A stretch of 64,000 nt of DNA, taken from an uncultured Saprospiraceae bacterium. Its GTDB lineage: Bacteria; Bacteroidota; Bacteroidia; Chitinophagales; Saprospiraceae. Where the stretch lies: positions 1 through 64,000 of the forward strand of contig CALDGQ010000102.1 in NCBI GenBank assembly GCA_937941765.1. Reading direction: 5' to 3'. Below, one piece after another: positions 6,001 to 33,516 of this stretch; position 1 is the first letter of the stretch, and the number at the start of each line of letters is the position of its first letter. The notes beneath the pieces were generated by a model. The model ran no database searches. It was given only the letters and a program-made list of their open reading frames with translations, and had not been told where the DNA came from. Both the position numbers and the translations under genes were made by a program.

Positions 6001-9000
6001 TTCAACTTGTACACAAACAATAACAATCGTTGATGATGTAGCGCCAGTTATATCTTGTCCAGCAAACGCAACTGTAAATTGTACAGCAGCAAATGCAACA
6101 ACAGGAATGACAGGTGAAGCAACTGCAACGGATGCTTGTGGAAATGGTGCGACTGTTACCTATGCAGATGGTCCAACAAATGGAAGTTGTGCAACAGGTG
6201 GTAGTTCATTTATAAGAACATGGACTGCAACAGATAATTGTGGAAATGCTTCTACTTGTGAACAAATAATCACGATTGTTGATACCGTACCACCTAGCAT
6301 TACTTGTCCAGCAGATGCAAATGTAAATTGCTCAACTGGAAGTGTTGATCCTTCAGTAACAGGAACGGCAACTGCAACTGATGCTTGTGGAAATGCAACC
6401 GTAACTTATGTTGATGGTGCCTTAACTGGTAACTGTCCTCAAAATATGATTAGAACTTGGACAGCAACTGACGAATGTGGAAACACTTCAACTTGCGAAC
6501 AAATCATTACAATTTCAGATGAGGAAGGACCAGTGATTACTTGTCCTGCAGATGCTGTAGTGAATTGTTCAACAGGTGATAGCAATCCATCTTCTACAGG
6601 AATGGCAACTGCTACTGATAATTGTGGAAATGCATCAGTAGAATACACTGATAGTCCATTGACTGGGAATTGTCCTCAAACTTTTGTGAGAACATGGACT
6701 GCAACTGATATTTGTGGAAACACTTCATCTTGTACTCAGAACATTACAATAGATGATCAAGATGCACCAGTTATTACTTGTCCTGCAGATGCTACAGCTT
6801 CTTGTAGTGAAGGAACAGATCCTTCTGTTACAGGAATGGCAACAGCAACGGATGCTTGTAACAACGAAAGTGTAACTTATACAGATGGACCAATTACAGG
6901 TGATTGTTCAACTACATTATCGTTTGTTAGAAATTGGAGAGCAGAAGATGCATGCGGAAATGTTTCAACATGTGCACAAACAATTACAGTAATAGACAAC
7001 GTTGCTCCAGCTATTACTTGTCCAGCTGATGCAGCGGTAAGTTGTTCAGATGGAGATGTAAGTCCAGCTGCAACAGGCAGTGCAACTGCAACGGATGATT
7101 GCAATAATTACAACATTACACATGCAGATGGAATTGTTACAGGAAATTGTCCACAGACTTTTGTAAGAACATGGACCGCGACTGATGCTTGTGGCAATAG
7201 TTCGAGCTGTGATCAGACAATTACTATTTATGACAACGAAGGACCAAGTATTACTTGTCCTGCAGATATTGAAGTTGATTGTTCTGCTAGCACCGATCCT
7301 TTTGCAACCGGTACGGCAACCGCAACAGACGCATGTGGAATTGCAAATGTGTCTCATGCAGATGGTCCTTTATTAGGTAATTGTCCAAGATATTTTGTAA
7401 GAACTTGGACTGCGACTGATGATTGTGGTAATACAAATACTTGTACTCAAAATATTACAATCGTAGATAATGAAGCTCCAGAGATTACTTGTCCTGCTGA
7501 TGCAAATGTAGAATGTTCTACAGGAAATTCAGATCCAGCAGCTACAGGAATGGCAACTGCAACTGATAATTGTGGATTTACAGATGTTACTTATGTAGAT
7601 AGTGATGAAACAGGAGACTGTCCAAGAACATTTACTAGAACTTGGATTGCTGAAGATGAATGCGGAAACGTATCAACTTGTGAACAGCAAATTACTAAGG
7701 TTGATAACACAGCACCTACATTAACTTGTCCAGATGATGTAGTTATCGAATGTGAGAATTTAGACATCTCTCCTACAAATACAGGAATTGCAACTGCAAT
7801 TGATAATTGTGGAAATGTAGTACTTGATTACGTAGATGGACCAACAACTGGTGATTGTCCTAGACAATTTGTAAGAACTTGGTCAGCAATCGATGCATGT
7901 GGAAATGGAACAACTTGTGAACAGGTCATCACCATTAATGATGGAACAGCTCCTGCAATTAGTTGTCCTGCCGATGCTCAAGTGGATTGTGGAGGTGGTA
8001 CTACACCAGATGTTACTGGAATGGCAACTGCAAATGATGAATGTTCTGACATTTCAATTACACATGAAGATGGACCTTTAACAGGTGCTTGTCCACAAAG
8101 TTTTGTAAGAACTTGGACTGCAACAGATGCTTGTGGAAACGCTTCAGATTGTACGCAAACTATTACAATCATTGATAACACTGCTCCGACATTTACTTGT
8201 GCTGATGATATTGAAGTGAGTTGTGGAAGTAGTACAGATCCTAGTGTAACTGGTGAACCTTCATTCTTAGATGACTGTAGTGAAGCAAGTGCAACTTACT
8301 CAGATGGACCATTACAAGGTGATTGTCCTCAGTACTTTGTAAGAACTTGGACAATAGAGGATGACTGTGATAATTCAACAACTTGTACACAAACGATTAC
8401 AATTGTCGATAATGTTGATCCTATAATTACTTGTCCTGCAGATTTTGCATCCGAATGTGGAACTGGAAATCCTGATCCAACTATCTCTGGATATGCAACG
8501 GCTGATGATGCTTGTTCAAATGCACTTATCTCTCATAGTGATGGGCCATTAACAGGAAGTTGTGCTACAGGTGGTGCTTCTTTTGTAAGAACTTGGACAG
8601 CGACAGACGCATGTGGAAATACTGCAACTTGTGATCAGACCATTACAATTATTGATGATGTGGCACCGACAATTACTTGTTCAGGTGATGCAAATGTTGA
8701 TTGTAGTAATGGAAATACAACACCAGACTTTACAGGATACGCAGTAGCAACGGATAATTGTGGAAATGCAGAAGTTACTTATGAAGATGGAAATACTTCA
8801 GGTGATTGTCCTGCAAGTTTCGTAAGAACATGGACTGCTACAGACGGTTGTGGAAACACTGCTACTTGTACACAAACAATTACAGTTACAGATGATGTAG
8901 CACCTACCATCACATGCCCAGCAGATTACGAAGTAGTTTGTGGAACAACAGATTCAAGTCCAGAAGCTGCTGGAGAGGCAACCGCTACAGATGCATGTTC

Positions 9001-17350: not shown

Positions 17351-18574
17351 CTACCGCTTCACAATCTTTCGACTCAACTCAAAATCGTCTCCAACAATAC
17401 TTACAACATAAAGCCCTGCGTGAAAAAAGTGTGAATCTATAAGTAATTTATTCGAAAAATCAGGACTATCTATTCTCCTTTCAAAAACTAATTTTCCAAA
17501 AGCATTATAAATAGAGACAATCACTTCTGAATTAATTGATCCATCAATATCAACTTTTAGTTCATGATCAAAAGGATTTGGTGATAATACAATAGATGGA
17601 TTTGTAGAAACTTTATATTCCGAATTTATAATGTTAGAAATATACGGATTGATATCAAAAGAAAAGAGTTTGGCATCCAACGCTGAAAATTTTTCAGAAC
17701 TAATATATCCGTATCCAGTGCTTTTAAAACAAACGCCTTCCATCTGACTCGTATTGATTGCGCTGCCCAATGAAATATAGCGTTTATTTCCAGAAAATAA
17801 ATCATTCCCTTCATAGTCAAAAAGCAACCACATAAAGGAAATGCCTCCGGTAGTATAGCCAATCAAAACTATATTTCCTTCATCATCTATCGCGGCACTG
17901 GTAATCAATCCTTGAACATCAAATTCATTTTGTAATTGAGCAACATGCGTGCCTGGTGTGTTTGGAAGCGTGTAATGTTTCGTTTTTTCATTGACCCAAT
18001 TTTTTGAAAAAAGGTGGATGACATCATTGTGAATAATGAAAGCTTCACAATCGAAATTGTTGTTGTTTGGTTGTTCTTGAAAAGATGTTTGATCACTGTA
18101 TGAAAAATTGATCACTTGTGAATTTACAATGTTCGCTACCAAACCACTTTTCTCAATCCGATGAATAGCAAGGTCCGTTCGATTACCAGGATTATTACCA
18201 AAATCTCCGACAAAAATATGCGTGTCATTTTCCGCCATATCTTCCCAATCATTATTATCTGCAGTTGCAATAATCACTTCTTGAAGAATATTTCCAGTCA
18301 AAGAATCAATTCTATAAATTTTATCTGGATTGCCTCCATCATTGTGCGTCCATAAATTGTTATTGAAAAAAGACAATCCGGATGTTTCGATAAGTGGATT
18401 TGGTAAAGTAGTAAGTTGAATCAGGTTGAAAGCAGTTGCAGGATACAAGCAGCTTCCATCATTAATCGTAGCTGACGACGAGTAATTGGACGCTTGAGGA
18501 TCCGTACAGCCAGTCTGAGAGTAACTTGGTAAGATGAAAAATATGGTACAGAAGGCGATCGATATTATTTTCAT
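17351..18574 (-). CDS. T9SS-secreted protein with Cys-rich N-terminal motif, beta-propeller-like
   Basis: 407 residues. A signal peptide (1-19, ending PSYSQ) is followed by the short calcium-motif-like segment GCTDPQASNYSSSATINDGS with a closing Cys, which is common at the start of secreted proteins of marine Bacteroidota. Residues ~55-310 resemble an SdiA-regulated/TolB-like propeller (repeated short strands; GGNPDKIYRID, NDWEDMAEND, FVGDFGNNPGNR). The last ~80 residues are a T9SS type A sorting domain (LSPNPFDHELKV ... GLYVVSIV). It is the last gene of the minus-strand run, nine bases after the SGNH gene, so it may act with the surface-acylation genes or simply be co-transcribed. No enzymatic function is assigned. 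Confidence 0.78.
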   Translation of the reverse strand: MKIISIAFCTIFFILPSYSQTGCTDPQASNYSSSATINDGSCLYPATAFNLIQLTTLPNPLIETSGLSFFNNNLWTHNDGGNPDKIYRIDSLTGNILQEVIIATADNNDWEDMAENDTHIFVGDFGNNPGNRTDLAIHRIEKSGLVANIVNSQVINFSYSDQTSFQEQPNNNNFDCEAFIIHNDVIHLFSKNWVNEKTKHYTLPNTPGTHVAQLQNEFDVQGLITSAAIDDEGNIVLIGYTTGGISFMWLLFDYEGNDLFSGNKRYISLGSAINTSQMEGVCFKSTGYGYISSEKFSALDAKLFSFDINPYISNIINSEYKVSTNPSIVLSPNPFDHELKVDIDGSINSEVIVSIYNAFGKLVFERRIDSPDFSNKLLIDSHFFHAGLYVVSIVGDDFELSRKIVKR

Positions 18575-18583
18575 TTGGTCTGT

Positions 18584-19459
18584 TTATTTCATAATTGGTA
18601 ACAAATAATTTTCTATCAAGTGATTTTGGCCGTCTGCATTGAGATGGTCATAATTATAGAAATACTTATACTCGTTTGGCGAGTTATAAATATCACTGTA
18701 ATCATAATAGGGGATATTATATTTCTCCTTGACTTCTTCTAAAAGATCAACCAAATCTTTTCTGTTTGGTGCAAGATCTCCAAAGAGGGTAGGGTTGATG
18801 ATAAAGGTTATTTTCGTTTGTTTATATTCTTTCGAATATTGATCTACGAATTTTAAAAACTTCTCTCTCTGTTCTAATGAAACGGTTTCTTGTCCTTTGT
18901 GAATCATATTTATTCTCATCACAACTTTTGAACTATCTATTTTTGTGATTGCTTTGGTTGGTGCATTTTGTTGTCTAGTATAAAGACCGTCGGGAGCAGA
19001 TTCAGTAATAGATATTTTTAAATAGTTTAGAACGGTATTAAGGTCAAAGGATTTCAACAATAGTTTTACAAAATCAGGATCCGGTTTTTCACGACGCCAC
19101 CAAAAAGGTTTGTCAAACTGCCCGGAAGTCAACATGCATGCATCAACAAAATAAAATATATGATTCGTGGTGTTTTTTTCTTGTGTAAAATAATCTAAGT
19201 ATGCTTTTTGGATAAGAACGCCACCTCCTAATGTATTGAGGCTTGCAGTATTTATATTTTTGTTGTTTAATGCTTTTCCCATGTTAGCACCTGAATTTCC
19301 CATTAAGGCAACTTCAAAATTTTCGCCTTCAGGAATATTAAAAACTAAATCCTGGGAAACATGCTGATTATATTTGTAATACGAATATAATCCGTAAGCT
19401 GTCAATAACAATAGACAACAAGTAAAAAATAAAATAGATTCAAGAATAAATTTTTTCAT
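18584..19459 (-). CDS. SGNH/DltD/AlgX-like membrane-anchored acyl transfer protein
   Basis: 291 residues with one N-terminal transmembrane helix (~5-25), placing the rest outside the inner membrane. The SGNH-type nucleophile elbow is GNSGAN at residues 54-59 (Ser56), and the C-terminal catalytic block is YDHLNADGQ at ~270-278 (Asp271, His272). Residue 57 onward and the overall size match the partners of MBOAT acyltransferases (DltD, AlgJ/AlgX, and similar proteins in sugar acylation). The gene follows the MBOAT gene by eight bases on the same strand. The expected role is to take the acyl group from the MBOAT protein and transfer it to an extracytoplasmic polymer; the polymer is unknown. A hydrolase role is possible but less likely given the neighbour. 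Confidence 0.8.
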   Translation of the reverse strand: MKKFILESILFFTCCLLLLTAYGLYSYYKYNQHVSQDLVFNIPEGENFEVALMGNSGANMGKALNNKNINTASLNTLGGGVLIQKAYLDYFTQEKNTTNHIFYFVDACMLTSGQFDKPFWWRREKPDPDFVKLLLKSFDLNTVLNYLKISITESAPDGLYTRQQNAPTKAITKIDSSKVVMRINMIHKGQETVSLEQREKFLKFVDQYSKEYKQTKITFIINPTLFGDLAPNRKDLVDLLEEVKEKYNIPYYDYSDIYNSPNEYKYFYNYDHLNADGQNHLIENYLLPIMK

Positions 19460-19467
19460 GTTCTAGA

Positions 19468-20910
19468 TTAAAATTGGAAGTATACGAATTCTTGTTTTTC
19501 TCCTGCATACATAAAAATCACAGCAACAAGCGTTATATAAAAGAACCATCTCAGTGGTCTTTTAAATTTTAGTGGTAGACCACCAATTGCGTATTGTTCA
19601 TTTTTCCCAAACCACTCAACAGTCATAAATAGGACAATAAAAATCGTTGTTGTCAACGCTAATTTTTTGCCATTGAATTCTGGAAACGAAAATAAGGACA
19701 ACGAAAAAACACTATCCAACATACTAATTGCATGGCTCATGCTTTCAGCTCTAAATATGAGACAACTAAAGCACCATACTGCATAGGTAAGAATTCCGCT
19801 GATAAATAAATAAGCTTTTTTGTTGACAGCAGCTTTTACTTTTTTTCTCATTTTCCTAGAACGATATTCATAACTCAATATAATTCCTTGAATGATTCCA
19901 AAGACAATAAACGTCCAATTGGCACCGTGCCAAAACCCAAACAATGTAAAGGTAATTAAGAAGACAATGATGTATCCATAACTCCGATTTAAGTGTCGCA
20001 ATCTTAAACCAAGTGGCGTATAAATATAATCTCTAATCCAAGTCGACAATGAAATATGCCACTTTCTATAAAAATCAGTCATGTTGGTTGAAAAGTATGG
20101 GGCAGCAAAATTTTGCATTAAATTGAATCCCATCAGTCTGGCAGTTCCTATAGCAATATCTGAGTAACCAGAAAAATCTCCATAAACTTGAAATGTGAAA
20201 AAGATTACTGCAAGCACAACTGTACTCCCTGATTGATCTGGACTATTTAATAAGGCATCAACCAAACTTGCGGAATTATCTGCAATGACCATTTTCTTAA
20301 ACAAGCCCCATAATATTTGTCGCATCCCATCAACCGCTTTGTCATATTCAAAAACTCTTTTTTTGAGAAATTGGGGAAGTAAATTGGATGCTCGCTCAAT
20401 CGGACCGGCTACTAACTGAGGGAAAAAACTTATAAAGGCTGCAAAGGCTATAAAGTCTGTGGTTGGTTTAATTCGTTCTTTATAAATATCAATGGTATAA
20501 CTCAAAGTCTGAAAAGTATAGAAACTAATTCCGACAGGAAGGATTATATTAAGTCTAGCTGATTCAAATGAAACGCCAAAAAATGAAAATGCATCGACAA
20601 AACTATCTGCAAAAAAGTTGTAGTATTTAAAAATACCTAGCAATCCAAGATTTACGAACAAACTAACCCAAAGAAATATTTTTCGACTTTTATCTTCTTT
20701 AGATTGCCCAATTTTTAAACCAACCAAATAGTCTACACAAGTGCTAAAAAAGATTAGGAATAGAAAGCGCCAATCCCACCATCCGTAAAAAAAATAGCTT
20801 GCAACAAGTAAGAAGAAATTTTGAAGTTTTAAATTCTTATTTGTTATAAACCAGTAAAGTATAAACACAACTGGAATAAATAAAGCAAACTCAAGAGAAT
20901 TAAATAACAT
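19468..20910 (-). CDS. MBOAT family O-acyltransferase (AlgI/DltB-like)
   Basis: 480 residues, polytopic inner-membrane protein with about ten hydrophobic segments. The family residues are present: RKWHISLSTW (His285) and GFWHGANWTF (His328, the accepted catalytic position), plus GYSDIAIGTARLMGF. Length and motifs fit AlgI/PatA/DltB-type proteins that move an acyl group across the membrane. The SGNH partner follows immediately, and an acyl carrier protein with carrier-loading enzymes lies upstream, so I infer that the donor is an ACP thioester rather than acetyl-CoA; sequence alone does not prove this. A 146-base gap with a perfect 17-bp hairpin separates it from the ACP gene. Confidence 0.93.
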   Translation of the reverse strand: MLFNSLEFALFIPVVFILYWFITNKNLKLQNFFLLVASYFFYGWWDWRFLFLIFFSTCVDYLVGLKIGQSKEDKSRKIFLWVSLFVNLGLLGIFKYYNFFADSFVDAFSFFGVSFESARLNIILPVGISFYTFQTLSYTIDIYKERIKPTTDFIAFAAFISFFPQLVAGPIERASNLLPQFLKKRVFEYDKAVDGMRQILWGLFKKMVIADNSASLVDALLNSPDQSGSTVVLAVIFFTFQVYGDFSGYSDIAIGTARLMGFNLMQNFAAPYFSTNMTDFYRKWHISLSTWIRDYIYTPLGLRLRHLNRSYGYIIVFLITFTLFGFWHGANWTFIVFGIIQGIILSYEYRSRKMRKKVKAAVNKKAYLFISGILTYAVWCFSCLIFRAESMSHAISMLDSVFSLSLFSFPEFNGKKLALTTTIFIVLFMTVEWFGKNEQYAIGGLPLKFKRPLRWFFYITLVAVIFMYAGEKQEFVYFQF

Positions 20911-20996
20911 TGATTTTGATCAGATAGTTTGAAAATCTTTTGCGATTTGGAAATCAAATTTGAAGAATCCAATAGCGTTTAGGTGCGATTAAAATG

Positions 20997-21035
20997 CAAC
21001 AAAACATTTACTAAGTTGTAGTAAATGTTTTGTTG
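20997..21035 (-). repeat. Perfect 17-bp inverted repeat between ACP and MBOAT genes
   Basis: CAACAAAACATTTACTA and its exact reverse complement flank a five-base loop. On the minus (coding) strand the hairpin is followed by CATTTTAA, a poor U-tract. It could be a terminator of the fkbH-to-ACP unit, an attenuator setting a lower level of MBOAT/SGNH, or an RNA-processing site. Confidence 0.85.
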
Positions 21036-21056
21036 TAAGAATTGTTTAGTCCTGAA

Positions 21057-21308
21057 TTATTGACTGACCTCCACTTTTGATTCAATTAGTGAAATCATAT
21101 CACCTAGGTTCTTAAGGTTTTCAATCTCACGAATACTCATTCTAAAATTGAATCTATTTTCGATTTCTGAAATAAGTTCAATATGCGTAATTGAATCCCA
21201 TTCCTCTACATCATCAGCAGTGGTTGTATCTGTTAAATCAACTTCAATTTCATCTAATGTGTCATTAAAAATTTCCTTAACTTTTTGAAAAATAATACTT
21301 CTTTCCAT
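21057..21308 (-). CDS. Acyl carrier protein
   Basis: 83 residues from the ATG at 21308 (a GTG lies one codon upstream). The phosphopantetheine site is the EEWDSITHIEL motif, Ser39, and the four-helix ACP pattern is clear. This is not the housekeeping acpP by context: no fatty-acid genes surround it, while an FkbH-like loading enzyme, a methyltransferase, a reductase and a MaoC-like protein are in the same transcription unit and an MBOAT/SGNH pair follows. Comparable dedicated carriers are FkbJ in methoxymalonyl-ACP synthesis and DltC in D-alanylation. It is inferred to carry the special acyl group of this locus. Confidence 0.92.
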   Translation of the reverse strand: MERSIIFQKVKEIFNDTLDEIEVDLTDTTTADDVEEWDSITHIELISEIENRFNFRMSIREIENLKNLGDMISLIESKVEVSQ

Positions 21309-21366
21309 CACAACTTTTTATTATAAATTTTGAAATAATTTCTTTTTTCTATAGCTCAAAAGTAAA

Positions 21367-21801
21367 TTAATTTGAATCTCTTACCTTGACTAAATATTTA
21401 CCTGTAGCAATTAATTGTTTTTGATCAGGTGCCGTTATTTTTATTTTTATTTCTAGTACACCTGTTCTAGGATCTATTTTTTCCAGTATCCCTTTAATTA
21501 GTAAATTAACTCCAGGATATGCTGGCTTTCTGTACTTGAAAGTTTGAGAGATAATAATAGCATTAATTCCTGGTAACTTCATCCCAATAAGTGTAGAAGA
21601 AAATGAAGAAATTAATAAGCCATGTGCAATAATATTTTCAAATCCATTTGCAACTGCATAGGATTTAGAAACATGCAAAGGATGAAAATCTTTTGTCAGA
21701 TTCGCAAAAGCAGAAATGTCATCATATATGAGTTCATGTTCTATTTGAGCTTCCATTCCTTCCGCAAGCTCTTCGAGTGTATATCGTGCTATATTATCCA
21801 T
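21367..21801 (-). CDS. MaoC-like hot-dog fold (R)-specific hydratase/dehydratase
   Basis: 144 residues, a single hot-dog domain. The hydratase-2 signature is visible: TKDFHPLHVSKSYAVANGF (the Asp and His pair) followed by IAHGLLISS. Such proteins hydrate enoyl thioesters or dehydrate 3-hydroxyacyl thioesters. The start codon overlaps the stop codon of the upstream reductase by one base (TAATG), implying coupled translation. Within the operon it may act on an ACP-bound acyl group, for example dehydrating a glyceryl or hydroxyacyl intermediate; the actual substrate is not known. Confidence 0.85.
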   Translation of the reverse strand: MDNIARYTLEELAEGMEAQIEHELIYDDISAFANLTKDFHPLHVSKSYAVANGFENIIAHGLLISSFSSTLIGMKLPGINAIIISQTFKYRKPAYPGVNLLIKGILEKIDPRTGVLEIKIKITAPDQKQLIATGKYLVKVRDSN

Positions 21802-22775
21802 TAAATATTTAGGACAAATTTTCCAAAGTGTTCATTTTTGCTCATGTCATTTATAGATGTATTCCCTTCTTGAAGTGATCTTACCTTATAAACAACTGGA
21901 ACTATTTTGTATTCATTGACCAAGTCAATCATTTTTTTAAATTCTTCATCAGATCCCATCGTTGATCCGTGTATTGAAATTTGTTTGAAAAATAAATTAG
22001 GAACTGCGACTCCAGAAATCGTTCCTGCTGTCCCTCCATAAATTCCGACATTAGCCCCAAGTTTACACATCTTCAATAATTGATTAAATCCTTTACCTCC
22101 CGCACTGTCAATTACAACATCAAATCCTCCTACCTTTTTTCCTAACGCTTTCATCGCTTGAGGATCTTTATAGCTAACTCCATCGACTGCTCCTAACGCT
22201 ATTGCTTTTTTTATTTTCTTTTCGTCTCCTGATGTAACATAAACTTCCGCACCGATAGCAATTGCAAATTGACAAGCGAACAATGCGACACCACCACCGA
22301 TTCCTGAAATCAAGACTTTCTGCCCTTTTTTTGCTTGACATCTAGTAAAGAGTGCACGGTAAGCAGTCAATCCAGCCAAAGGGAGACACGCTGCTTGTTC
22401 GGAACTTAGATGATCAGGTTTCCGATACAGCTTATTTTTTCTTACAAAAATTTGATCCGCAAAAGTACCATATTCTTGCAATCCAAGAATAGTATAATTA
22501 GTAGAAGGAAATGGACCATCTCCCCAATTCACATTCGGACAAATAATGTATTCATTGCCTTCATAAATACCACATCCATCAGAACCTAAAACAGCTGGAA
22601 GGTTATCCGCAATATCAGGATACAATCCTTTTGTAATCCAATAATCTCGTCTATTTAGAGCAGCCGACTTTAATTTGACTGAGACAAAATCATCTGTAAC
22701 ATAGTCTGGTTTTGAAATTTCTTGAACTTCAATGGGCTCATGTCTTCCTCTAAAAATTAGTGCATTTATAGTCAT
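21801..22775 (-). CDS. Medium-chain reductase, quinone oxidoreductase/enoyl reductase-like
   Basis: 324 residues of the zinc-free MDR superfamily: GroES-like N-terminal half (~1-125) and a Rossmann half with the nucleotide motif GIGGGVALFACQFAIAIGA at ~158-176, then GAVDGVSYKD and the second glycine cluster GGKGFNQLL. Catalytic zinc-binding residues are not evident. Members include crotonyl/enoyl reductases and quinone reductases. Its place between the methyltransferase and MaoC genes, gaps of nine and minus one bases, suggests reduction or oxidation of the carrier-bound acyl chain. A stand-alone quinone reductase is the alternative. Confidence 0.82.
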   Translation of the reverse strand: MTINALIFRGRHEPIEVQEISKPDYVTDDFVSVKLKSAALNRRDYWITKGLYPDIADNLPAVLGSDGCGIYEGNEYIICPNVNWGDGPFPSTNYTILGLQEYGTFADQIFVRKNKLYRKPDHLSSEQAACLPLAGLTAYRALFTRCQAKKGQKVLISGIGGGVALFACQFAIAIGAEVYVTSGDEKKIKKAIALGAVDGVSYKDPQAMKALGKKVGGFDVVIDSAGGKGFNQLLKMCKLGANVGIYGGTAGTISGVAVPNLFFKQISIHGSTMGSDEEFKKMIDLVNEYKIVPVVYKVRSLQEGNTSINDMSKNEHFGKFVLNI

Positions 22776-22784
22776 TAAACTGGA

Positions 22785-23618
22785 TTACTTTTTTTGTAAA
22801 ATATAAAAACGATTCTTAGCTCCAATATCTAACGTAATAGATTGATGTGGAATGTCTTCCATGAATTCAATTTTCAAACCTAAACGTTGGACTTGATTCT
22901 CATAATCTTTATGGTCACTTTCGAATTTATACAAATGATCAAATTGAGGAATATTAGTAGCAGTTGTCAAATATATTTTCCCATTGGGAGCAAGCACTTG
23001 GATACATTGTTCCAATAATTCGTAAGGATTTGATAAATGTTCTAACAATTCAATTAGGTATACTTGGTCATATTGTAACGAATCGTTTTTTCCATCAAAA
23101 TATTCTTCTCGGAAATTTATATCCGGGTGTTGGTGGTACACAAATTTATCAATTGAAAGATCGTAAGCATACAAATTTTGAATTTTGGATTTTACTAATT
23201 CAAGTTCTAATCCAGGGCCAGTTCCAATAAATAAACCATTCTGAGAATTTTGACATGTACTTTCTATTATTTGCATGATTCTAAATCGATGATCAGCCAA
23301 CATGCAACTTAAAAGTAAAATGACATCATATTCATATCTGCTTGGTGCAAGTCTTGTTGGATCAATTTCTAAAGGATACTTACCTGTTTTTGAAAATGCA
23401 GTCATATCCTTTTTATAAGATTTCATGAATCTATAGTAGGCATCCTTTGGCTTGATCTCATTGTCTTTGTGAAAGGATAAATAAGTATTTATATAATCCT
23501 TAATTTTTGCCATTAAATTTTCATCATAAAACGGACTTGAGACAACTCTGTCAAATAGGATAGCTAAAATTCTATTTTCAGAAATTAACTGATCAATCGA
23601 TTGATTAATTTTAAGCAA
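22785..23618 (-). CDS. Class I SAM-dependent methyltransferase
   Basis: 277 residues starting with TTG inside the end of fkbH-like (8-base overlap). The first ~120 residues are helical and unlike common methyltransferases. The Rossmann core begins with FIGTGPGLELE (motif I, ~151-161), continues with YDQVYLIELLEHLSNP (motif II region) and CIQVLAPNGKIYLTTAT (motif III). It belongs to the carrier-protein operon by overlap. In the methoxymalonyl-ACP pathway an O-methyltransferase (FkbG) acts on the FkbH product; an equivalent O-methylation of a glyceryl unit is a reasonable but unproved reading here. Confidence 0.78.
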   Translation of the reverse strand: MLKINQSIDQLISENRILAILFDRVVSSPFYDENLMAKIKDYINTYLSFHKDNEIKPKDAYYRFMKSYKKDMTAFSKTGKYPLEIDPTRLAPSRYEYDVILLLSCMLADHRFRIMQIIESTCQNSQNGLFIGTGPGLELELVKSKIQNLYAYDLSIDKFVYHQHPDINFREEYFDGKNDSLQYDQVYLIELLEHLSNPYELLEQCIQVLAPNGKIYLTTATNIPQFDHLYKFESDHKDYENQVQRLGLKIEFMEDIPHQSITLDIGAKNRFYILQKK

Positions 23619-25347
23619 AGTTTTTTTCTATTTTATGTATGTGATTTGTTAGTGGATTGAAATTTTCTAACTTTAAATTCCAAGAACCATTTTCTTCTAC
23701 GAATCCCAAATCTTTATAATGATCTTTTACAATAATATTTTTCTTTGTTGGTAACCATTCACCTACTATCTCTTTGATATCGTTGTTTTTGCAAGCCACA
23801 ACAATTTCGTTTAAAACAAATTTTTCAACATCTCTTTTTAAAACACGACAACTCATTATCCAGGTATCTATGAATAGCGTACGCACTTTAATTTCTCCAA
23901 TCACCAAACTTATCAAACCATATTCTCCATATTTATCACTTAGATTAATTTGAAAAGTCATAAAAGCAGGATTATTTTTCATGCTTTTTATTTGCTCTTC
24001 ACTATATCTTTTTGTTCTAAGATTAAACTGGTTTGATCGTTGGGTAAGTTGTGCAATCCTTGGAACTGAGAAATCGTCGAAAGGAGTCATTACCGCTTTC
24101 ATTTCAAGTCCACCAAGATATTCGTCAATAGAATTAACAGATTTTTTATCAGAAAGTCTTTTAGCTTCGTCCTGATATCTTTTCGTTCTATTATTATCTT
24201 CTGCTGAAAATGAAGTGGTTTCAAATAGATTTAATGTATTTAAATAACTCAAGTATTCGGAAGGATCTTCTGGCAATTCGGGCACACATACTTGCGGTAA
24301 CTCTGTGCGTACTAAATTTCTCTCAAAAGGATTATCATCTAAAAAAACCATGGAATCAAAACCGATATTCAATACCTCTTGAATATTTCTGATGTTATCT
24401 GCTTTGTTTTCCCAGTTCGCTACAAATACAGAGATGTCTGATAACTGTAGTACCATTTCTGGGTGTTTGTCAAATGGTTCTTTGGCGATTGCTTCTGTGT
24501 TTTTACTGCACACACAAAGAATAATTCCTCTATTTTTTAATTCTTTGGCCCATCGTTGAAGCGCGCTGAAAGCTCTACCGATCCCTAATTCTCCGACCTG
24601 AATTCCCTCAAGTCCATCATCACCAATAACACCTCCCCACATCGTGTTGTCAAGATCTAGAATTAAACATTTTTGAAGTTGAATTCCCTCCGATGCCTTT
24701 ATAATATCTACATAATTTTTTACTAACAATGGTAAAGCATTTAGACTATAAGCCATTTGAGATTTTACATAAAACTTAGTATCGATTCGCTCATTTATCC
24801 CTGTAAAATTTTGAAGTGCTTCCATATCACAGATGAGCACATTGCCATTTGCTAATGCTAATTTTTTCATTTCCAGATTCAGCAAAGAAAGTTGAAACCC
24901 AAAAGATGACAATACACTTGCATTGAAATTTCCAAATACATTGTCTACAATTCGCGGAAAAGTATTTAGGATTATTTTAGTGCTAGCTGGTATTTTTTGA
25001 ATGAGATTTTGAAAGAAAAGTTTTTTACTATTAGCAAATTCTTCTTTCTGTTGTAATTCCAGTTTTTGAAATTCTTCTAAGAGTTTTTCTGTAGCAGTTA
25101 GAAGGATCGCATAATCTCTATGCTCAGCATAAAATGAAGAATCAGGATTGATAATATCTAATGCAATTTGACCAAACCCCGCTTCATAGATTTCAAATTT
25201 TATTTTTTCTTTTCTACCATACCCATCTAGTGCAGATACAAAAAACTGAGAAGCAGTATCGGAAAGTACAGCGATACTATATTGATAGTTCGTTGGTTCT
25301 TTTGATTTGGTAAATTTTTTTAACTCACTAAATTTAGGAAGTATCAT
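23611..25347 (-). CDS. FkbH-like HAD-IIIC protein, probable acyl (glyceryl) carrier-loading enzyme
   Basis: 578 residues, the full length of FkbH-domain proteins. An N-terminal SGNH-like region (~20-210) precedes the HAD core: ILDLDNTMWGGVIGDDG at ~229-245 with the nucleophile Asp231, CSKN at ~280-283 and FLDDNPFERN at ~335-344. The C-terminal ~150 residues are GNAT-like (TQRSNQFNLRTKRY, then DKYGEYGLI). Characterised relatives convert 1,3-bisphosphoglycerate to glyceryl-ACP. It is the first gene of the minus-strand operon, overlapping the methyltransferase. A dedicated ACP in the same operon supports the loading role. Confidence 0.9.
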   Translation of the reverse strand: MILPKFSELKKFTKSKEPTNYQYSIAVLSDTASQFFVSALDGYGRKEKIKFEIYEAGFGQIALDIINPDSSFYAEHRDYAILLTATEKLLEEFQKLELQQKEEFANSKKLFFQNLIQKIPASTKIILNTFPRIVDNVFGNFNASVLSSFGFQLSLLNLEMKKLALANGNVLICDMEALQNFTGINERIDTKFYVKSQMAYSLNALPLLVKNYVDIIKASEGIQLQKCLILDLDNTMWGGVIGDDGLEGIQVGELGIGRAFSALQRWAKELKNRGIILCVCSKNTEAIAKEPFDKHPEMVLQLSDISVFVANWENKADNIRNIQEVLNIGFDSMVFLDDNPFERNLVRTELPQVCVPELPEDPSEYLSYLNTLNLFETTSFSAEDNNRTKRYQDEAKRLSDKKSVNSIDEYLGGLEMKAVMTPFDDFSVPRIAQLTQRSNQFNLRTKRYSEEQIKSMKNNPAFMTFQINLSDKYGEYGLISLVIGEIKVRTLFIDTWIMSCRVLKRDVEKFVLNEIVVACKNNDIKEIVGEWLPTKKNIIVKDHYKDLGFVEENGSWNLKLENFNPLTNHIHKIEKNFA

Positions 25348-28244: not shown

Positions 28245-30041
28245 ATGCAAAAACTGCTTTACACACTAGTTCTTATTACGACGACCTATTTTTTAAGTGC
28301 TCAAGGTTCCGCCCTGATTATGGGTAATGAAGCCTATCATACCATGGACCGATTGTCAATAAAAAGTGGAATTGATGCACCGTTTCATACTTCTTTGAAA
28401 AATTACAATCGCAAAGATATTACCAATTATGCAACCGCATTAGATTCACTCAATATTGAGTTGACGGAATTGGATAAAGAAGATCTGCAATTTATTTTTC
28501 GAGATAATAATGAATGGTTGAAAACTTCTGAATTTGCAACAACAGTTGCAGGTAAGAGAGAAAGTGTAGAAAATAGAATCTATGTAGATAGCACCCAAAC
28601 ATTTTACACACTAGGTGCAACACAAATGGAACAAAGTGCCAAAAGCGACAACTACTTTTTATCCAATCGCCCCATTTTGAAATACTTTTATAAAACTCCT
28701 GCTAACTTCTTAGAAATTGACAAAAAATATTTCCACCTAAGAGTCAATCCAATTATTGATTTTAAACTTGGAAAAGATACGGAAGATGAAGAATTGATTT
28801 TTAACAATACTCGTGGTGTAGAGTTGAGAGGTGGTATTGATGATAGAATTTTCTTTTATACCAACATTGTAGAGACGCAAGCTAGATTTCCAGAATATGT
28901 AAGAAAGTTTGTTGATAAAAATGAAGTGGTCCCAAATGCAGGATTGTTTAAAAAATACGAAAGTAGTATTTTCAATATTACGGATGGATATGATTATTTA
29001 AACGCAAAAGGGTTTTTAGGTTTTAATATTACAAAACATGTTGGCGTTCAATTTGGACACGGCAAGAATTTTATTGGGAATGGAATGAGATCCCTTCTGT
29101 TGTCTGATTTTGCGACCAATTATTTTTATCTCAAATTGAATACGAAAGTTTGGAAATTTAATTATCAAAATATTTTTGCCGAATTAGTACCTGGTTCAAA
29201 AAGTAAAATTGTTGATGAATTATTGCCAAAAAAATATACTGCAACTCATCATTTAAGTTACAATGTCACACCAGATATTAATGTCGGAATTTTTGAATCA
29301 ATAGTTTTTAGTAGAAATAATCAGTTTGAATTACAATATCTTAATCCCATCATTTTGTATCGATCAATTGAGCAGCAAATAGGAAGCCCTGACAATGCAT
29401 TGTTAGGTATTGATGTGAAATGGAATTTCTTAAACCAATTTTCATTATACGGTCAACTGGTTTTGGATGAATTTAAATTTGATGAATTGGTAACAAACAA
29501 CAATGGTTGGTGGGCTAATAAATATGGAATACAAGCAGGATTGAAATACATTGATGCTTTTGGTGTGGATCATCTTGATTTGCAATTTGAAGCGAATATT
29601 GTGCGACCTTATACTTATACTCATCGTGATAGTTCTGCTAGTTATACGCACTTCAATCAAGCACTTGCACATCCGCTTGGTGCCAATTTCAAAGAGTACA
29701 TGGGTAATATCAGATATGTGCCTGTCAAGAATTTAATCATCAATGCAAGAGTCGCTTATTTTGAACAAGGAGAAGATGATTTAGGGTCAAATTGGGGAAG
29801 TGATATCTTGCTTTCACATAATACACGAGAACTGGAATACGGAAATGAAATCGGACAAGGAATCAGTTCTACCACTTTGGTTGGAAGATTAAATGTGAGT
29901 TATCAAGTGTTTCACAATATGTTTGTAGACCTCGATTACCTATATCGAAATCAAGAAAATGATCTGAATGAAACTCGGAAAACCAATTATATCGGTGGTG
30001 GTATTCGTATTAATTTGGCTAGACAGCGGATGGAATTTTAA
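28245..30041 (+). CDS. Outer-membrane beta-barrel, capsule-assembly Wzi / gliding RemB-like
   Basis: 598 residues with a signal peptide (1-19, ending FLSAQ). Residues ~150-598 are dominated by amphipathic strands. Recognisable stretches are VQFGHGKNFIGNGMRSLLLSD, LSYNVTPDINVGIFESIVF, ELQYLNPIILYRSIEQQIGS and ALLGIDVKWNFLNQFSLYGQL, the pattern of the Wzi-like family that in flavobacteria includes the gliding protein RemB. It ends in Phe, as outer-membrane barrels do. Wzi binds group 1 capsule at the cell surface; here the protein could anchor the polysaccharide made by the cluster from 37575 on, which is inference. A capsule-unrelated gliding role is the alternative. Confidence 0.7.
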   Translation: MQKLLYTLVLITTTYFLSAQGSALIMGNEAYHTMDRLSIKSGIDAPFHTSLKNYNRKDITNYATALDSLNIELTELDKEDLQFIFRDNNEWLKTSEFATTVAGKRESVENRIYVDSTQTFYTLGATQMEQSAKSDNYFLSNRPILKYFYKTPANFLEIDKKYFHLRVNPIIDFKLGKDTEDEELIFNNTRGVELRGGIDDRIFFYTNIVETQARFPEYVRKFVDKNEVVPNAGLFKKYESSIFNITDGYDYLNAKGFLGFNITKHVGVQFGHGKNFIGNGMRSLLLSDFATNYFYLKLNTKVWKFNYQNIFAELVPGSKSKIVDELLPKKYTATHHLSYNVTPDINVGIFESIVFSRNNQFELQYLNPIILYRSIEQQIGSPDNALLGIDVKWNFLNQFSLYGQLVLDEFKFDELVTNNNGWWANKYGIQAGLKYIDAFGVDHLDLQFEANIVRPYTYTHRDSSASYTHFNQALAHPLGANFKEYMGNIRYVPVKNLIINARVAYFEQGEDDLGSNWGSDILLSHNTRELEYGNEIGQGISSTTLVGRLNVSYQVFHNMFVDLDYLYRNQENDLNETRKTNYIGGGIRINLARQRMEF

Positions 30042-30550: not shown

Positions 30551-30575
30551 AAAAAAAATGCTTTGCATTTTTTTT
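30551..30575 (-). terminator. Terminator directly at the cysN stop codon
   Basis: An 11-bp perfect inverted repeat, AAAAAAAATGC and GCATTTTTTTT, with a three-base loop overlaps the minus-strand stop codon of cysN. Confidence 0.6.
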
Positions 30576-31860
30576 AAATAATCATCCCAGCAGCCATCGT
30601 CTCATTCGTAGCTTCATCAACAAACAATAAACTTCCGGTCACTCTGTTTTTACGATATGGATCATAAAATAATGGAGAAGTAGTACGGATAACCACTCTA
30701 GCAATATCATTCATTTTGACATTTAAATCTTCCGTATCTCTGTGAAGTGTATTAATATCTAATTTGTATCGAATTTCTTTCACCACACATCTAGCTTCTT
30801 TGGTCGTATGAAGAATTGTATATTTTCCGCGCTCTCTCAAAGGCTTACTTTCATTGAACCAACAAACCATTACTTCTAAATCTTGACTAACTTCTGGTTT
30901 GTTATTTTCACGGACAATCATGTCACCACGGCTGATGTCAATCTCATCTTCTAACAATACAGTAACAGCCATTGGAGGGTGTGCTACTTCGATTTCGCCA
31001 TCATAAGTATCAATCTTTTTAATCTTACTTGTGAATCCAGAAGGCAACACCATTACTTCATCACCTTTCTTCATAATACCTCCGGCAACACGTCCACCAT
31101 AGCCACGGTAATCATGGAATTCATCCGTATTTGGACGAATCACATATTGAACCGGGAAACGATTGTCAATAAAATTATGATCAGAACCAATGTGTACATT
31201 TTCTAAATAATACATTAAAGTCGTACCATCGTACCAAGGCATATTCTCAGATTTCTTCACCACATTATCTCCTTTCAATGCAGAGATCGCAATAAAGTGA
31301 ATATCTGTAACATCCAATTTAGAAGAGAATTGAGAAAACTCATCTTTGATTTTTTCAAATACCTCTTCACTATAATCAACCAAGTCCATCTTATTGACGC
31401 AAACCAATAAATGTGGAATTTTCAATAAAGAAGAAATGAAAGAGTGACGTCTAGTTTGTTCCGAAATTCCTTTTCTAGCATCAATTAATATCAATGCTAC
31501 GTTAGAAGTAGAAGCACCTGTCACCATGTTACGTGTATACTGGATGTGTCCAGGACAATCTGCAATGATGAACTTTCTTTTTGGAGTCGAGAAATATCGG
31601 TAGGCCACATCAATGGTGATACCTTGTTCCATTTCTGCTTTCAAACCATCAGTCAATAATGCCAAGTTTACTTCTGATTCGCCACGTTTCTCACTACTTT
31701 TTTTGATCATCTCATATTGATCTTCGAAGATCGACTTACTATCATAAAGTAGTCTTCCAATCAAAGTACTCTTTCCATCATCTACACTTCCTGCAGTTGT
31801 AAAACGCAATAATTCTTTTTCCTGGTAATCTGGGATTCCGTTTTTATTTTTATCTATCAT
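30574..31860 (-). CDS. cysN: Sulfate adenylyltransferase subunit 1 (GTPase)
   Basis: 428 residues from the ATG at 31860; an in-frame ATG at 31938 would add 26 residues unlike any family N terminus, so it is rejected. GTP-binding motifs are clear: GSVDDGKST (~24-32), DCPGHIQYTRNM and NKMDLVDYSEE. Elongation-factor-like beta-barrel domains follow. CysN hydrolyses GTP to drive adenylyl transfer to sulfate by CysD, giving APS. It is third in the minus-strand cysC-cysD-cysN unit. No APS/PAPS reductase or sulfite reductase gene accompanies it here, so the product may serve sulfotransferases. Confidence 0.95.
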   Translation of the reverse strand: MIDKNKNGIPDYQEKELLRFTTAGSVDDGKSTLIGRLLYDSKSIFEDQYEMIKKSSEKRGESEVNLALLTDGLKAEMEQGITIDVAYRYFSTPKRKFIIADCPGHIQYTRNMVTGASTSNVALILIDARKGISEQTRRHSFISSLLKIPHLLVCVNKMDLVDYSEEVFEKIKDEFSQFSSKLDVTDIHFIAISALKGDNVVKKSENMPWYDGTTLMYYLENVHIGSDHNFIDNRFPVQYVIRPNTDEFHDYRGYGGRVAGGIMKKGDEVMVLPSGFTSKIKKIDTYDGEIEVAHPPMAVTVLLEDEIDISRGDMIVRENNKPEVSQDLEVMVCWFNESKPLRERGKYTILHTTKEARCVVKEIRYKLDINTLHRDTEDLNVKMNDIARVVIRTTSPLFYDPYRKNRVTGSLLFVDEATNETMAAGMII

Positions 31861-32005
31861 GATTTTTATTTGTTCTATATATATTGTTTTGGATTTTTCA
31901 CCATTTAAGAAGTTTAAGGAAAAAACATGTAAGATCATATTAGCTACTTAAATGCCTCTTAAATGGTTTTGAACTCTATGTCTTATATGGTTAAAAACAA
32001 AGAAG

Positions 32006-32908
32006 CTAAAAATATCCCTTTTTCTTTCTGTCTTCCATAGACGTTTCAGAACGCTTATCATCAGATCGACCACCTCTTTCTGTATGGCGAGTGGTTTCAA
32101 TTTCTACAATAATTTTTTCTAAAGTATCTGCTTCTGAAACAACTGCACCTGTGCAAGTCATGTCTCCGATCGTTCTAAAACGAATCTGCATGTTTTTGAC
32201 TTCTTCTCCTGGCTTTTTGTTCAAATAATCAGAATCCGCTAAGATGATACTATCACGAATGACAACATCTCTAGTATGAGCAGTGTATAACATTGGTAAT
32301 GGAACTTCCTCCATCGCTAAGTATTGCCAAACATCCAATTCCGTCCAGTTACTAATTGGGAATACACGGAAATGTTCACCCATTAATTTTTTACCATTAA
32401 AGAGATTCCATAATTCTGGTCGTTGGTTCTTTGGAGCCCATTGACCGAATTCATCTCTATGAGAAAAGAAACGTTCTTTAGCTCTTGCTTTTTCTTCATC
32501 ACGACGAGCACCACCAAGTGCAGCATCAAATTTTCCTTTTTCTAATTCATCTAACAATACAGCTGTTTGTAAGCCATTGCGACTTGCATTGAAACCTTTT
32601 TCCTCTACAACCATTCCCGTCTTGATAGCTTCATCAACCGATCCAACAATTAATTTTGCTCCTAATTTTGCCATCAATTCATCTCTGAATTTTATAGCTT
32701 CAGGAAAGTTGTGTCCAGTGTCAATGTGTAAGAATGGAAACGGAATGCGAGCAGGATAAAATGCTTTACTCGCCAAATAAGTCATCAAAATGGAATCCTT
32801 TCCACCAGAAAACATTAGTACTGGATTTTCAAATTGAGCAGCCACTTCACGTATAACAAAAATGGATTCTGCTTCAAGTTCTTTTAAGTGATTTAATCTA
32901 TAGTTCAT
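32006..32908 (-). CDS. cysD: Sulfate adenylyltransferase subunit 2
   Basis: 300 residues, the usual length. The PP-loop FSGGKDSILM (~33-42) binds ATP; further family blocks are HIDTGHNFPEAIKFRD, GGARRDEEKARAKERFFSHRD, FPISNWTELDVWQYL and the C-terminal tail ERGGRSDDKRSETSMEDRKK. It makes APS from ATP and sulfate together with CysN. It is separated from cysC by eight bases and from the cysN start by about 145 bases. Confidence 0.97.
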   Translation of the reverse strand: MNYRLNHLKELEAESIFVIREVAAQFENPVLMFSGGKDSILMTYLASKAFYPARIPFPFLHIDTGHNFPEAIKFRDELMAKLGAKLIVGSVDEAIKTGMVVEEKGFNASRNGLQTAVLLDELEKGKFDAALGGARRDEEKARAKERFFSHRDEFGQWAPKNQRPELWNLFNGKKLMGEHFRVFPISNWTELDVWQYLAMEEVPLPMLYTAHTRDVVIRDSIILADSDYLNKKPGEEVKNMQIRFRTIGDMTCTGAVVSEADTLEKIIVEIETTRHTERGGRSDDKRSETSMEDRKKKGYF

Positions 32909-32916
32909 AATAATTA

Positions 32917-33516
32917 TTATTCAAAAGTAAGGGTAGGTTTTAAAAATTCATAGAGTTTATCAACAGAAGTTGCTACATCATCAGCACCAGTATCCACCAC
33001 CCAAGCTGGATCAGTTGGAATTTCGTAAGGAGAATCAATGCCAGTAAAGCCTTTTATTTCTCCAGCACGTGCTTTTTTATAAAGCCCTTTTACATCTCTT
33101 TCTTCACACATTTCTAGTGATGCTTTGATATAGACCTCAATGAAATTATCGGGACCGATAATTTCTTTAGCCATGTTTCGCATTTTTATTGTTGGACTAA
33201 TGAAAGAGTTGATTGTTATAACACCGCAATTCAAAAAGAGTTTGGACACTTCAGATATCCTTCTGATATTTTCCAATCGATCAGCCAACTCAAAACTCAA
33301 GTTGTTGTTAATACCACTACGAATATTGTCTCCATCAAGGACTTGACAGAAAAAATTGTTTTTAAACAACTTCCGTTCTAGTGCTTCTGCAATTGTGCTT
33401 TTTCCAGAACCAGAGAGGCCAGTCATCCAAATGACTCGGCTGTTTTGTTTAAGGATATTTTCTCGATCACCACGACCGACAAGCTTATCAAAAATTGGAT
33501 GAATATTTTCTGCCAC
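32917..33516 (-). CDS. cysC: Adenylylsulfate kinase
   Basis: 199 residues with a GTG start. The P-loop GLSGSGKS (residues 33-40) is followed by DGDNIRSGINNNLSF, the APS-binding arginine/aspartate block and KGLYKKARAGEIKGFTGIDSPYE. It phosphorylates APS to PAPS, the donor for sulfotransferases. It is the first gene of the minus-strand cysC-cysD-cysN unit and is divergent from metH. Two sulfotransferase genes in the polysaccharide cluster (58238, 63040) are plausible consumers. Confidence 0.95.
   Translation of the reverse strand: MAENIHPIFDKLVGRGDRENILKQNSRVIWMTGLSGSGKSTIAEALERKLFKNNFFCQVLDGDNIRSGINNNLSFELADRLENIRRISEVSKLFLNCGVITINSFISPTIKMRNMAKEIIGPDNFIEVYIKASLEMCEERDVKGLYKKARAGEIKGFTGIDSPYEIPTDPAWVVDTGADDVATSVDKLYEFLKPTLTFE

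Follow-up and report, generated by a model that had tools for sequence, protein, structure and literature searches.

A recurrent FkbH, carrier-protein, MBOAT and SGNH gene module that probably acylates cell-surface molecules from a glycolysis intermediate

In the Dlt system, Met302, Val305, Ile306 and Met309 of the MBOAT protein DltB contact Met36 and Val39 of the carrier protein DltC, and Lys312 and Arg317 of DltB pair with Glu40 of DltC (PMC11035591). PatA auto-acylates the tyrosine of a C-terminal FxYxxF motif that also occurs in DltX, and PatA/PatB-type pathways are described as carrier-free and acyl-CoA-using (PMC12148441). For FkbH-type enzymes, a proposed route loads glyceryl from 1,3-bisphosphoglycerate, followed by oxidation and O-methylation (PMC7489565). 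Glycerate loading by FkbH together with methylation has been proposed for aeruginosins (PMC10143770, PMC13122637), and loading of glycerate onto an acyl carrier protein (ACP) or peptidyl carrier protein for several natural products (PMC7489565, PMC10143770, PMC13122637). These statements, like those on published systems below, follow the available excerpts of the papers cited. Here we analyse a stretch of 64,000 nucleotides from an uncultured Saprospiraceae bacterium (the window; contig C102 of an assembly of 6.25 Mb in 154 contigs, 81.6% complete), in which genes for an FkbH-like enzyme, a dedicated ACP, an MBOAT acyltransferase and an SGNH protein lie together. These genes probably build a small acyl group from a glycolysis intermediate on the carrier and pass it across the membrane to a cell-surface molecule. 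With a probability of about 0.65, we read them as a carrier-dependent, Dlt-type surface acylation by MBOAT and SGNH proteins, in which the carrier is loaded by FkbH rather than by an adenylating ligase.

Gene content, conservation, motifs, folds and a docking-residue signature were read from the window and its relatives. Eight open reading frames (ORFs), all of them open, run on the minus strand from 25347 to 17351 (Table 1). An earlier note on this DNA had listed seven of these genes as one locus; all eight ORFs were found, and profiles confirm six of them. Seven genes make up the module (FkbH, methyltransferase, MDR reductase, MaoC, ACP, MBOAT and SGNH). The eighth, at 17351-18574, encodes a cargo protein of the type IX secretion system (T9SS) and is a neighbour only: it was not seen recurring with the module and, except for one label (L102), is absent beside it in the maps of other loci. 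Profile matches were obtained for FkbH_N (E 8.9e-45), Methyltransf_23 (E 1.6e-10), ADH_zinc_N in the MDR reductase (E 1.1e-24), MaoC (E 5.5e-12), PP-binding in the ACP (E 3.2e-7; gene start corrected to the ATG at 21308) and MBOAT (E 1.4e-23). The FkbH protein also scores 291.6 bits with TIGR01686, above the curated cut-off of 146.65. The protein noted earlier as membrane-anchored SGNH is weak by sequence, with a sub-threshold Pfam match only (GDSL_2, E 0.0058), and has the SGNH fold in its predicted structure (mean pLDDT 79.7), which aligns to PatB (Z 12.4), OatA (Z 12.0), DltD (Z 11.6, 222 residues) and many SGNH hydrolases. Its residues G54, S56, P223 and H272 are invariant in 35 aligned SGNH proteins.

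Many bacteria share this core set. Named loci were taken around the best 80 of at least 575 confirmed FkbH relatives in GTDB genomes, found with a query alignment of eight FkbH proteins; a run was defined by a common strand and gaps of at most 350 bp, and loci ending at contig ends were kept. The run contains an ACP gene in 73 of these 80 loci, and both ACP and MBOAT genes in 54; 19 have an ACP without an MBOAT and seven have neither. A profile grown from the SGNH genes matches 66 of the 74 genes that directly follow an MBOAT. The earlier note had proposed to look for co-occurrence across genomes and had named a lack of conservation outside close relatives as the outcome that would speak against it. 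FkbH, ACP, MBOAT and SGNH genes were found together far beyond close relatives, and the set is kept in several phyla. Outside Bacteroidota, where our loci are examples and not rates, ACP and MBOAT share a run with FkbH in records that are metagenome-derived by title, namely Desulfovibrio (L073), Omnitrophota (L076), Clostridium (L079, L120), Treponema (L097) and Verrucomicrobiota (L118); five further loci (L054, L068, L113, L114, L122) have no MBOAT in the run. On plasmids, Rhodobacteraceae SC52 carries ACP, FkbH, MBOAT, a hypothetical gene and a VOC gene in series, and the genes for MBOAT, ACP, methyltransferase and FkbH alternate in strand on a Tistrella plasmid. FkbH and ACP occur on Niveispirillum and Paroceanicella plasmids, with no annotated MBOAT within 6 kb, and FkbH, ACP, MaoC and SDR on a Subdoligranulum plasmid, in a stretch that gave no MBOAT match. 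On pSymB of Sinorhizobium meliloti ml47 lie an MBOAT gene, a 409-amino-acid gene annotated as a TonB-dependent receptor, ACP and FkbH (L160:5219-10254). Strain 1021 has a VOC gene ahead of the MBOAT, and its record (L154) shows a split FkbH frame. The 1021 copy of the 409-amino-acid gene has no Pfam match and is a candidate SGNH by its position and its GGS motif. In the S. meliloti MBOAT, Asn takes the place of the first His.

In a survey of the phylum, FkbH matches at E ≤1e-60 were found in 18 of 394 other genomes. Six of these are 47-52% identical to the window FkbH over most of its length and the others 32-42%. All six close matches (L025-L030) have an ACP and three an MBOAT, whereas the 12 more distant ones (L031-L042) have an ACP in nine cases and an MBOAT in one. 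The MBOAT link is therefore mainly a trait of the FkbH subgroup of the window. Because FkbH is patchy in both family and phylum, its spread fits horizontal transfer of a cassette. A scan with FkbH found no relatives in viral contigs. In the few open-access papers that our searches brought up the module is not described, which is weak evidence of absence.

The MBOAT carries the second line of evidence. His285 and His328, which the earlier note had pointed out, are both present and invariant across 39 aligned MBOATs. The model of the window protein (mean pLDDT 91.6) has DltB as its best fold match (E 1.4e-12), and DltB accounts for its only PDB sequence matches. In the phmmer alignment with DltB, Leu302 of the window aligns with Ile306. 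At this place, the 54 ACP-linked MBOATs of the FkbH loci have a hydrophobic residue in 49 cases, Arg or Lys in four and glycine in one, whereas the 31 comparison MBOATs (those of the 30 best-scoring MBOAT loci and the second MBOAT of the genome itself) have glycine in 30 cases and Arg in one (Fisher p 1e-20, for related rows and with no kinship correction). We also read 40 lower-scoring MBOAT loci, hand-picked, with flanks of some 4 kb as far as the contig reached. Those with an ACP gave 14 non-glycine readings, no glycine and one unread, and those without an ACP 18 glycine, four non-glycine and three unread; since L178 and L182 overlap, 13 of the 14 are independent. All eight loci with both kinds of MBOAT, several of them near-copies, pair a non-glycine residue in the ACP-linked protein with glycine in an unlinked one. 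This docking-helix residue largely appears to separate ACP-linked from unlinked MBOATs, and the carrier link suspected earlier from the likeness to DltB gains from it: linked MBOATs bear the DltB-like residue and unlinked ones glycine. On the carrier side, I40, I43 and E44 of the window ACP stand at the places of DltC Met36, Val39 and Glu40. The first two places are hydrophobic in 95 other ACPs as well; at the third, 70 of them have Gln and one has Glu. The C-terminus of the window MBOAT reads FVYFQF, an FxYxxF acyl-shuttle motif with Tyr477; the motif occurs at this end in 52 of 54 ACP-linked MBOATs, in all 22 of the others and in 26 of the 31 used for comparison. Placed on the MBOAT C-terminus as in PatA, it gives the module a fused shuttle of Pat type beside the Dlt-like carrier.

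A candidate second loader came to light among MBOAT loci in general. MBOAT genes occur in 110 of 296 genomes of the phylum, the genome of the window counted. None of the 30 best-scoring loci has an ACP or FkbH in flanks of about 1 kb, a sample that overstated the rarity of ACP beside MBOAT, given that 15 of the 40 lower-scoring loci have an ACP (L178 and L182 overlapping). An AMP-binding ligase lies nearby in 13 of these 15 (L162, L164-L166, L170, L175, L179, L180, L183, L186, L187, L190 and L198). No FkbH match was found in these loci; as the MBOATs of G000, G237, G321 and G333, which lie beside FkbH, had been left out of the 40, this absence is no rate. An SGNH-like neighbour of one family accompanies nine of the 13 ligase loci, and four of the six that were fully read (L164, L175, L183, L190) have the gene order SGNH-like, ligase, ACP, MBOAT. 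Their docking residue is non-glycine wherever readable. Judged by gene content, these loci form another carrier-linked class with a Dlt-like layout. With the ligase as query, no match was obtained in the window or in the 80 FkbH loci, so FkbH and the AMP ligase look like alternative loaders.

The relationship of the MBOATs was analysed in two trees. In a quick tree of 108 MBOATs, whose rows other than the comparison rows come from FkbH loci by construction, the window falls in a group of 48 rows (SH-aLRT 93) that includes 41 of the 54 ACP-linked rows, six other FkbH-locus rows and none of the 31 comparison rows. Of the 22 'other' rows, which are the second MBOATs in FkbH loci, 12 fall in a sister group with five comparison rows; eight more ACP-linked rows group with three other rows and one comparison row, and five stand apart. 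A careful tree kept 65 of the 108 rows; dropped from it were seven rows of unusual length or character, another 16 comparison rows and 20 near-copies or otherwise thinned rows.

Several observations weigh against the proposed pathway. Neither tree unites the ACP-linked MBOATs in a single clade. In the careful tree the window MBOAT, like L121, L100, L078 and L049, branches from an unresolved fork beside the core ACP clade (28 rows, 100/100) and a clade of unlinked MBOATs (13 rows, 100/98). The gap between ACP and MBOAT in the window measures 146 bp and holds a strong hairpin, whereas the distance from the preceding gene is at most 85 bp in 53 of the 54 ACP-linked MBOATs; because of this gap, MBOAT and SGNH may form a separate transcript. 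Gly301 stands at the place of DltB Val305, as in CoA-type MBOATs, and one ACP-linked MBOAT (L098) is the bearer of glycine at the Ile306 place. With Glu at the Glu40 place in only one of 95 ACPs, a DltC-type salt bridge appears to be no general feature of these carriers. Asn269 of the SGNH protein replaces the Asp found in 72% of its relatives (Asp271 is adjacent), so that the predicted catalytic set is not canonical. An MDR reductase in this gene position was seen in the window only, among the loci fetched, and FkbH finds a match in only one of the 59 relatives (G006, 28-29% identity), the genome of the window not counted.

Part of this could be explained by two systems lying side by side, with FkbH and ACP serving another enzyme and the MBOAT/SGNH pair acting as an ordinary acetyl-CoA O-acetyltransferase. 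The divided ACP and MBOAT genes and the fork in the careful tree would suit such an arrangement, as would the 19 of 80 FkbH runs with an ACP and no MBOAT and the 46-52% identity of the window MBOAT to several ACP-unlinked MBOATs, which include two of the comparison set at 48%. The window, however, has Leu302 where unlinked MBOATs have glycine, and its quick-tree group is rich in ACP-linked and free of comparison rows. Moreover, its nearest relative, L121 (54%), directly precedes, together with its SGNH gene, an FkbH-methyltransferase-ACP series, and is the sole full-length MBOAT found in its locus. We therefore regard two separate systems as unlikely. The Dlt-like route that the earlier note had read from this locus holds at the level of the module, by co-occurrence and docking residue, and is weakened for the window by the hairpin gap, the tree placement and Asn269. 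Loading, MBOAT transfer and SGNH transfer form a core route that we consider quite probable for the module in general and, with somewhat less assurance, likely for this window.

In the proposed pathway, each chemical step, the acyl group and the acceptor would be as follows. FkbH would first take D-glyceryl from 1,3-bisphosphoglycerate and attach it to the ACP phosphopantetheine. The DLDNT motif (D231, D233), C280 and C500 of the window FkbH do not vary across eight aligned relatives, and its closest solved structure is 3slr (BF1531, E 6.8e-115). Ser39 of the ACP is the phosphopantetheine site, in a DS pair invariant across 19 aligned ACPs. FkbH might instead load a non-glyceryl acyl group from another acyl phosphate, with export by ACP, MBOAT and SGNH still as proposed, given that the link of this FkbH subgroup to glyceryl is by profile. 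This seems improbable: the DLDNT and CSKN residues are invariant, the companion enzymes fit glyceryl (methyltransferase, an epimerase-like VOC protein below cut-off, MaoC with a FabG-like SDR), and gellan, with its L-glycerate ester, is an example of such a decoration (PMC9104527).

Tailoring enzymes would then alter the acyl group on the ACP, and these genes vary between loci. A methyltransferase directly follows FkbH in 11 of the 80 runs; that of the window is divergent and co-linear over its full length with FkbH-adjacent methyltransferases elsewhere, with NxPxxDHxY common to all. MaoC occurs in 33 runs and MaoC with SDR in 25, and the single SDR scanned with NCBIfam is FabG-like; 23 runs contain core labels plus unlabelled genes only. 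The window MaoC-like protein has D38 and H43, spaced D-x4-H, which we take to be the R-hydratase arrangement. Near FkbH in 22 loci, a gene of 120-145 amino acids has the look of a VOC protein (read by eye). All three scanned match Glyoxalase_4, with methylmalonyl-CoA epimerase as the nearest NCBIfam model, below its cut-off; as the Sinorhizobium copy matches Glyoxalase_4 too, a hot-dog enzyme was ruled out for this recurrent gene of about 130 residues. One other MDR-like match among the searched loci (L119:2818-3864, E 7e-5) does not adjoin FkbH. Profile-tested split transketolase halves lie within the FkbH-MaoC-ACP run of L119 (12107-13877), which suggests a two-carbon addition onto a pyruvyl-type carrier intermediate. 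In L106, genes of 277 and 321 amino acids were read as such halves (the profile test was done for L119). Overall, the annotated tailoring set fits C2/C3 chemistry on a glyceryl thioester, which could be O-methylated, epimerised at C2, dehydrated to pyruvyl and reduced to lactyl. Bryostatin may offer a lactyl precedent, for which our literature search gave no support.

For the window, the most coherent order would have the methyltransferase 2-O-methylate glyceryl-ACP first, after which MaoC would remove the 3-hydroxyl to give 2-methoxyacrylyl-ACP, and the MDR reductase would finally yield 2-methoxypropionyl (O-methyl-lactyl)-ACP. Because O-methylation in this putative order comes before dehydration and leads to 2-methoxyacrylyl, an enoyl reductase of the MDR kind, and not a ketoreductase, would be needed. 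We hold 2-methoxypropionyl as the product in the window to be doubtful.

Next, the ACP would dock at the cytoplasmic helix of the MBOAT, and the acyl group would pass to Tyr477 of the C-terminal FxYxxF motif on the outer side. Ser56 of the SGNH protein would accept it there and hand it to a hydroxyl group on an acceptor outside the cytoplasm, for which a polysaccharide is the most likely candidate. This acceptor may be a polymer made by a nearby polysaccharide-type locus. A small molecule, glycolipid or lipoprotein could take this role, the locus then being one of specialised-metabolite or lipid tailoring. FkbH is, after all, best known from natural-product clusters, FkbH and MBOAT occur together in suomilide/aeruginosin clusters (PMC10143770, PMC13122637), and the module itself has no glycosyltransferase. 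However, profiles place no ketosynthase, acyltransferase or condensation domain above cut-off in the eight ORFs, and the polysaccharide-type locus starts about 12 kb away (translations read by eye). In S. meliloti ml47, annotated capsular polysaccharide, ABC transporter and RkpR export genes lie some 4 kb beyond the module. A non-polysaccharide acceptor is thus rather unlikely, and we keep to a surface polysaccharide.

The features of the locus are collected in Table 1. Elsewhere in the window, the large polysaccharide export/synthesis-type locus at 37575-63864 contains, to judge by its translations, flippase, ABC exporter, aminotransferase, sulfotransferase-like and methyltransferase genes. 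CysN, CysD and CysC were read from translations at 30574-33516. A Wzi-like reading of 28245-30041 was dropped; this part is without any Pfam match. A 3473-amino-acid ORF at 104-10525 has many similar repeats (HYR-like by eye) and an apparent C-terminal sorting tail.

Table 1. Features of the FkbH/ACP/MBOAT/SGNH locus in the window
Feature	Position	Strand	Proposed role or basis
FkbH-like HAD-IIIC enzyme, 578 amino acids, FkbH_N and FkbH domains	23611..25347	-	Proposed glyceryl loader (1,3-bisphosphoglycerate to ACP); profiles
S-adenosylmethionine (SAM) methyltransferase, 277 amino acids, TTG start	22785..23618	-	Proposed O-methylation of ACP-bound acyl; profile
MDR reductase, 324 amino acids	21801..22775	-	Proposed enoyl-type reductase; profile
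MaoC-like hydratase/dehydratase, 144 amino acids	21367..21801	-	Profile
Dedicated ACP, phosphopantetheine Ser39	21057..21308	-	Profile, alignment
Terminator-like hairpin in the ACP/MBOAT gap, 17-bp stem, weak T tail	20997..21035	-	z -5.6 for the 146-nt gap
MBOAT acyltransferase, 480 amino acids, His285/His328, Leu302, C-terminal FVYFQF (Tyr477)	19468..20910	-	Profile, alignment, model
Membrane-anchored SGNH protein, 291 amino acids, Ser56, His272, Asn269	18584..19459	-	Predicted structure, alignment
T9SS-sorted protein	17351..18574	-	Only the T9SS sorting tail matched; 9 bp downstream of the SGNH gene

Our data indicate a carrier-dependent MBOAT class with its own loader, which is common next to this FkbH subgroup within Bacteroidota and extends to several further phyla. 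The docking-helix residue provides a simple annotation rule for the two MBOAT classes, and the module points to genes that may make the glyceryl, lactyl and methylated acyl esters of bacterial polysaccharides. On balance we are inclined, if only just, to see here a widespread and undescribed class of glycolysis-to-envelope acylation. In it, FkbH would make glyceryl-ACP, exchangeable tailoring enzymes (O-methyltransferase, epimerase-like VOC, MaoC with a ketoreductase or enoyl reductase, split transketolase) would turn this into D-/L-glyceryl, O-methylglyceryl, lactyl or methoxypropionyl groups, and a DltB-type MBOAT with SGNH would write these onto surface polysaccharides.

Among decorated polysaccharides, gellan bears an L-glycerate ester (PMC9104527); our literature search found no gene for this glyceryl group, and by analogy such esters may arise by an FkbH/MBOAT route. 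A dedicated ACP has been proposed to give an acyl group to a nucleotide sugar for the O-polysaccharide of Flavobacterium psychrophilum (PMC6519341), a transfer step that differs from the one proposed here. FkbH-dependent polyketide supply (methoxymalonyl-ACP, tetronates) shares FkbH, a stand-alone ACP and an O-methyltransferase with the module (PMC7489565), whereas in the eight ORFs neither a ketosynthase nor a FabH-like enzyme reaches the cut-off, and an MBOAT/SGNH pair is there instead. Also, the methoxymalonyl-ACP route in that source oxidises glyceryl- to hydroxymalonyl-ACP by two dehydrogenases; the eight ORFs hold no such pair and have MDR and MaoC proteins in its place. PatA/PatB peptidoglycan O-acetylation and other MBOAT/SGNH pairs have in common with the module an MBOAT with C-terminal FxYxxF and an SGNH partner (PMC12148441). 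In contrast to them, the window has an ACP and, with Leu302, lacks the glycine of the unlinked type. The Bacteroidota AMP-ligase/ACP/MBOAT operons resemble it in their ACP-adjacent MBOAT and non-glycine docking residue and differ in their loader, an AMP-binding ligase in 13 of 15 loci, with no FkbH match. Compared to Dlt (DltA, DltB, DltC, DltD, DltX), the module likewise has a dedicated carrier protein, whose gene lies 146 bp from the MBOAT gene in the window, an MBOAT that matches DltB by PDB sequence and fold, an SGNH partner whose predicted fold resembles that of DltD (with Asn269 at the usual Asp), a hydrophobic residue in the putative carrier-docking helix (with Gly301 at the Val305 place) and an acyl-Tyr shuttle motif. 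On the other hand, it has FkbH and no adenylating ligase was found: a Bacteroidota ligase query gave no tblastn match for a DltA-type ligase in the window, and there is none in the eight ORFs, the rest of the genome not being searched. The shuttle motif lies on the MBOAT C-terminus and not on a separate DltX microprotein, the ORFs listed here being those of at least 70 amino acids, and the window MBOAT stays below the NCBIfam DltB cut-off (TIGR04091 equivalog, 179.5 versus 375 bits). Seen against these systems, the module looks like a Dlt-type pathway in which FkbH replaces DltA and the shuttle motif is fused to the MBOAT.

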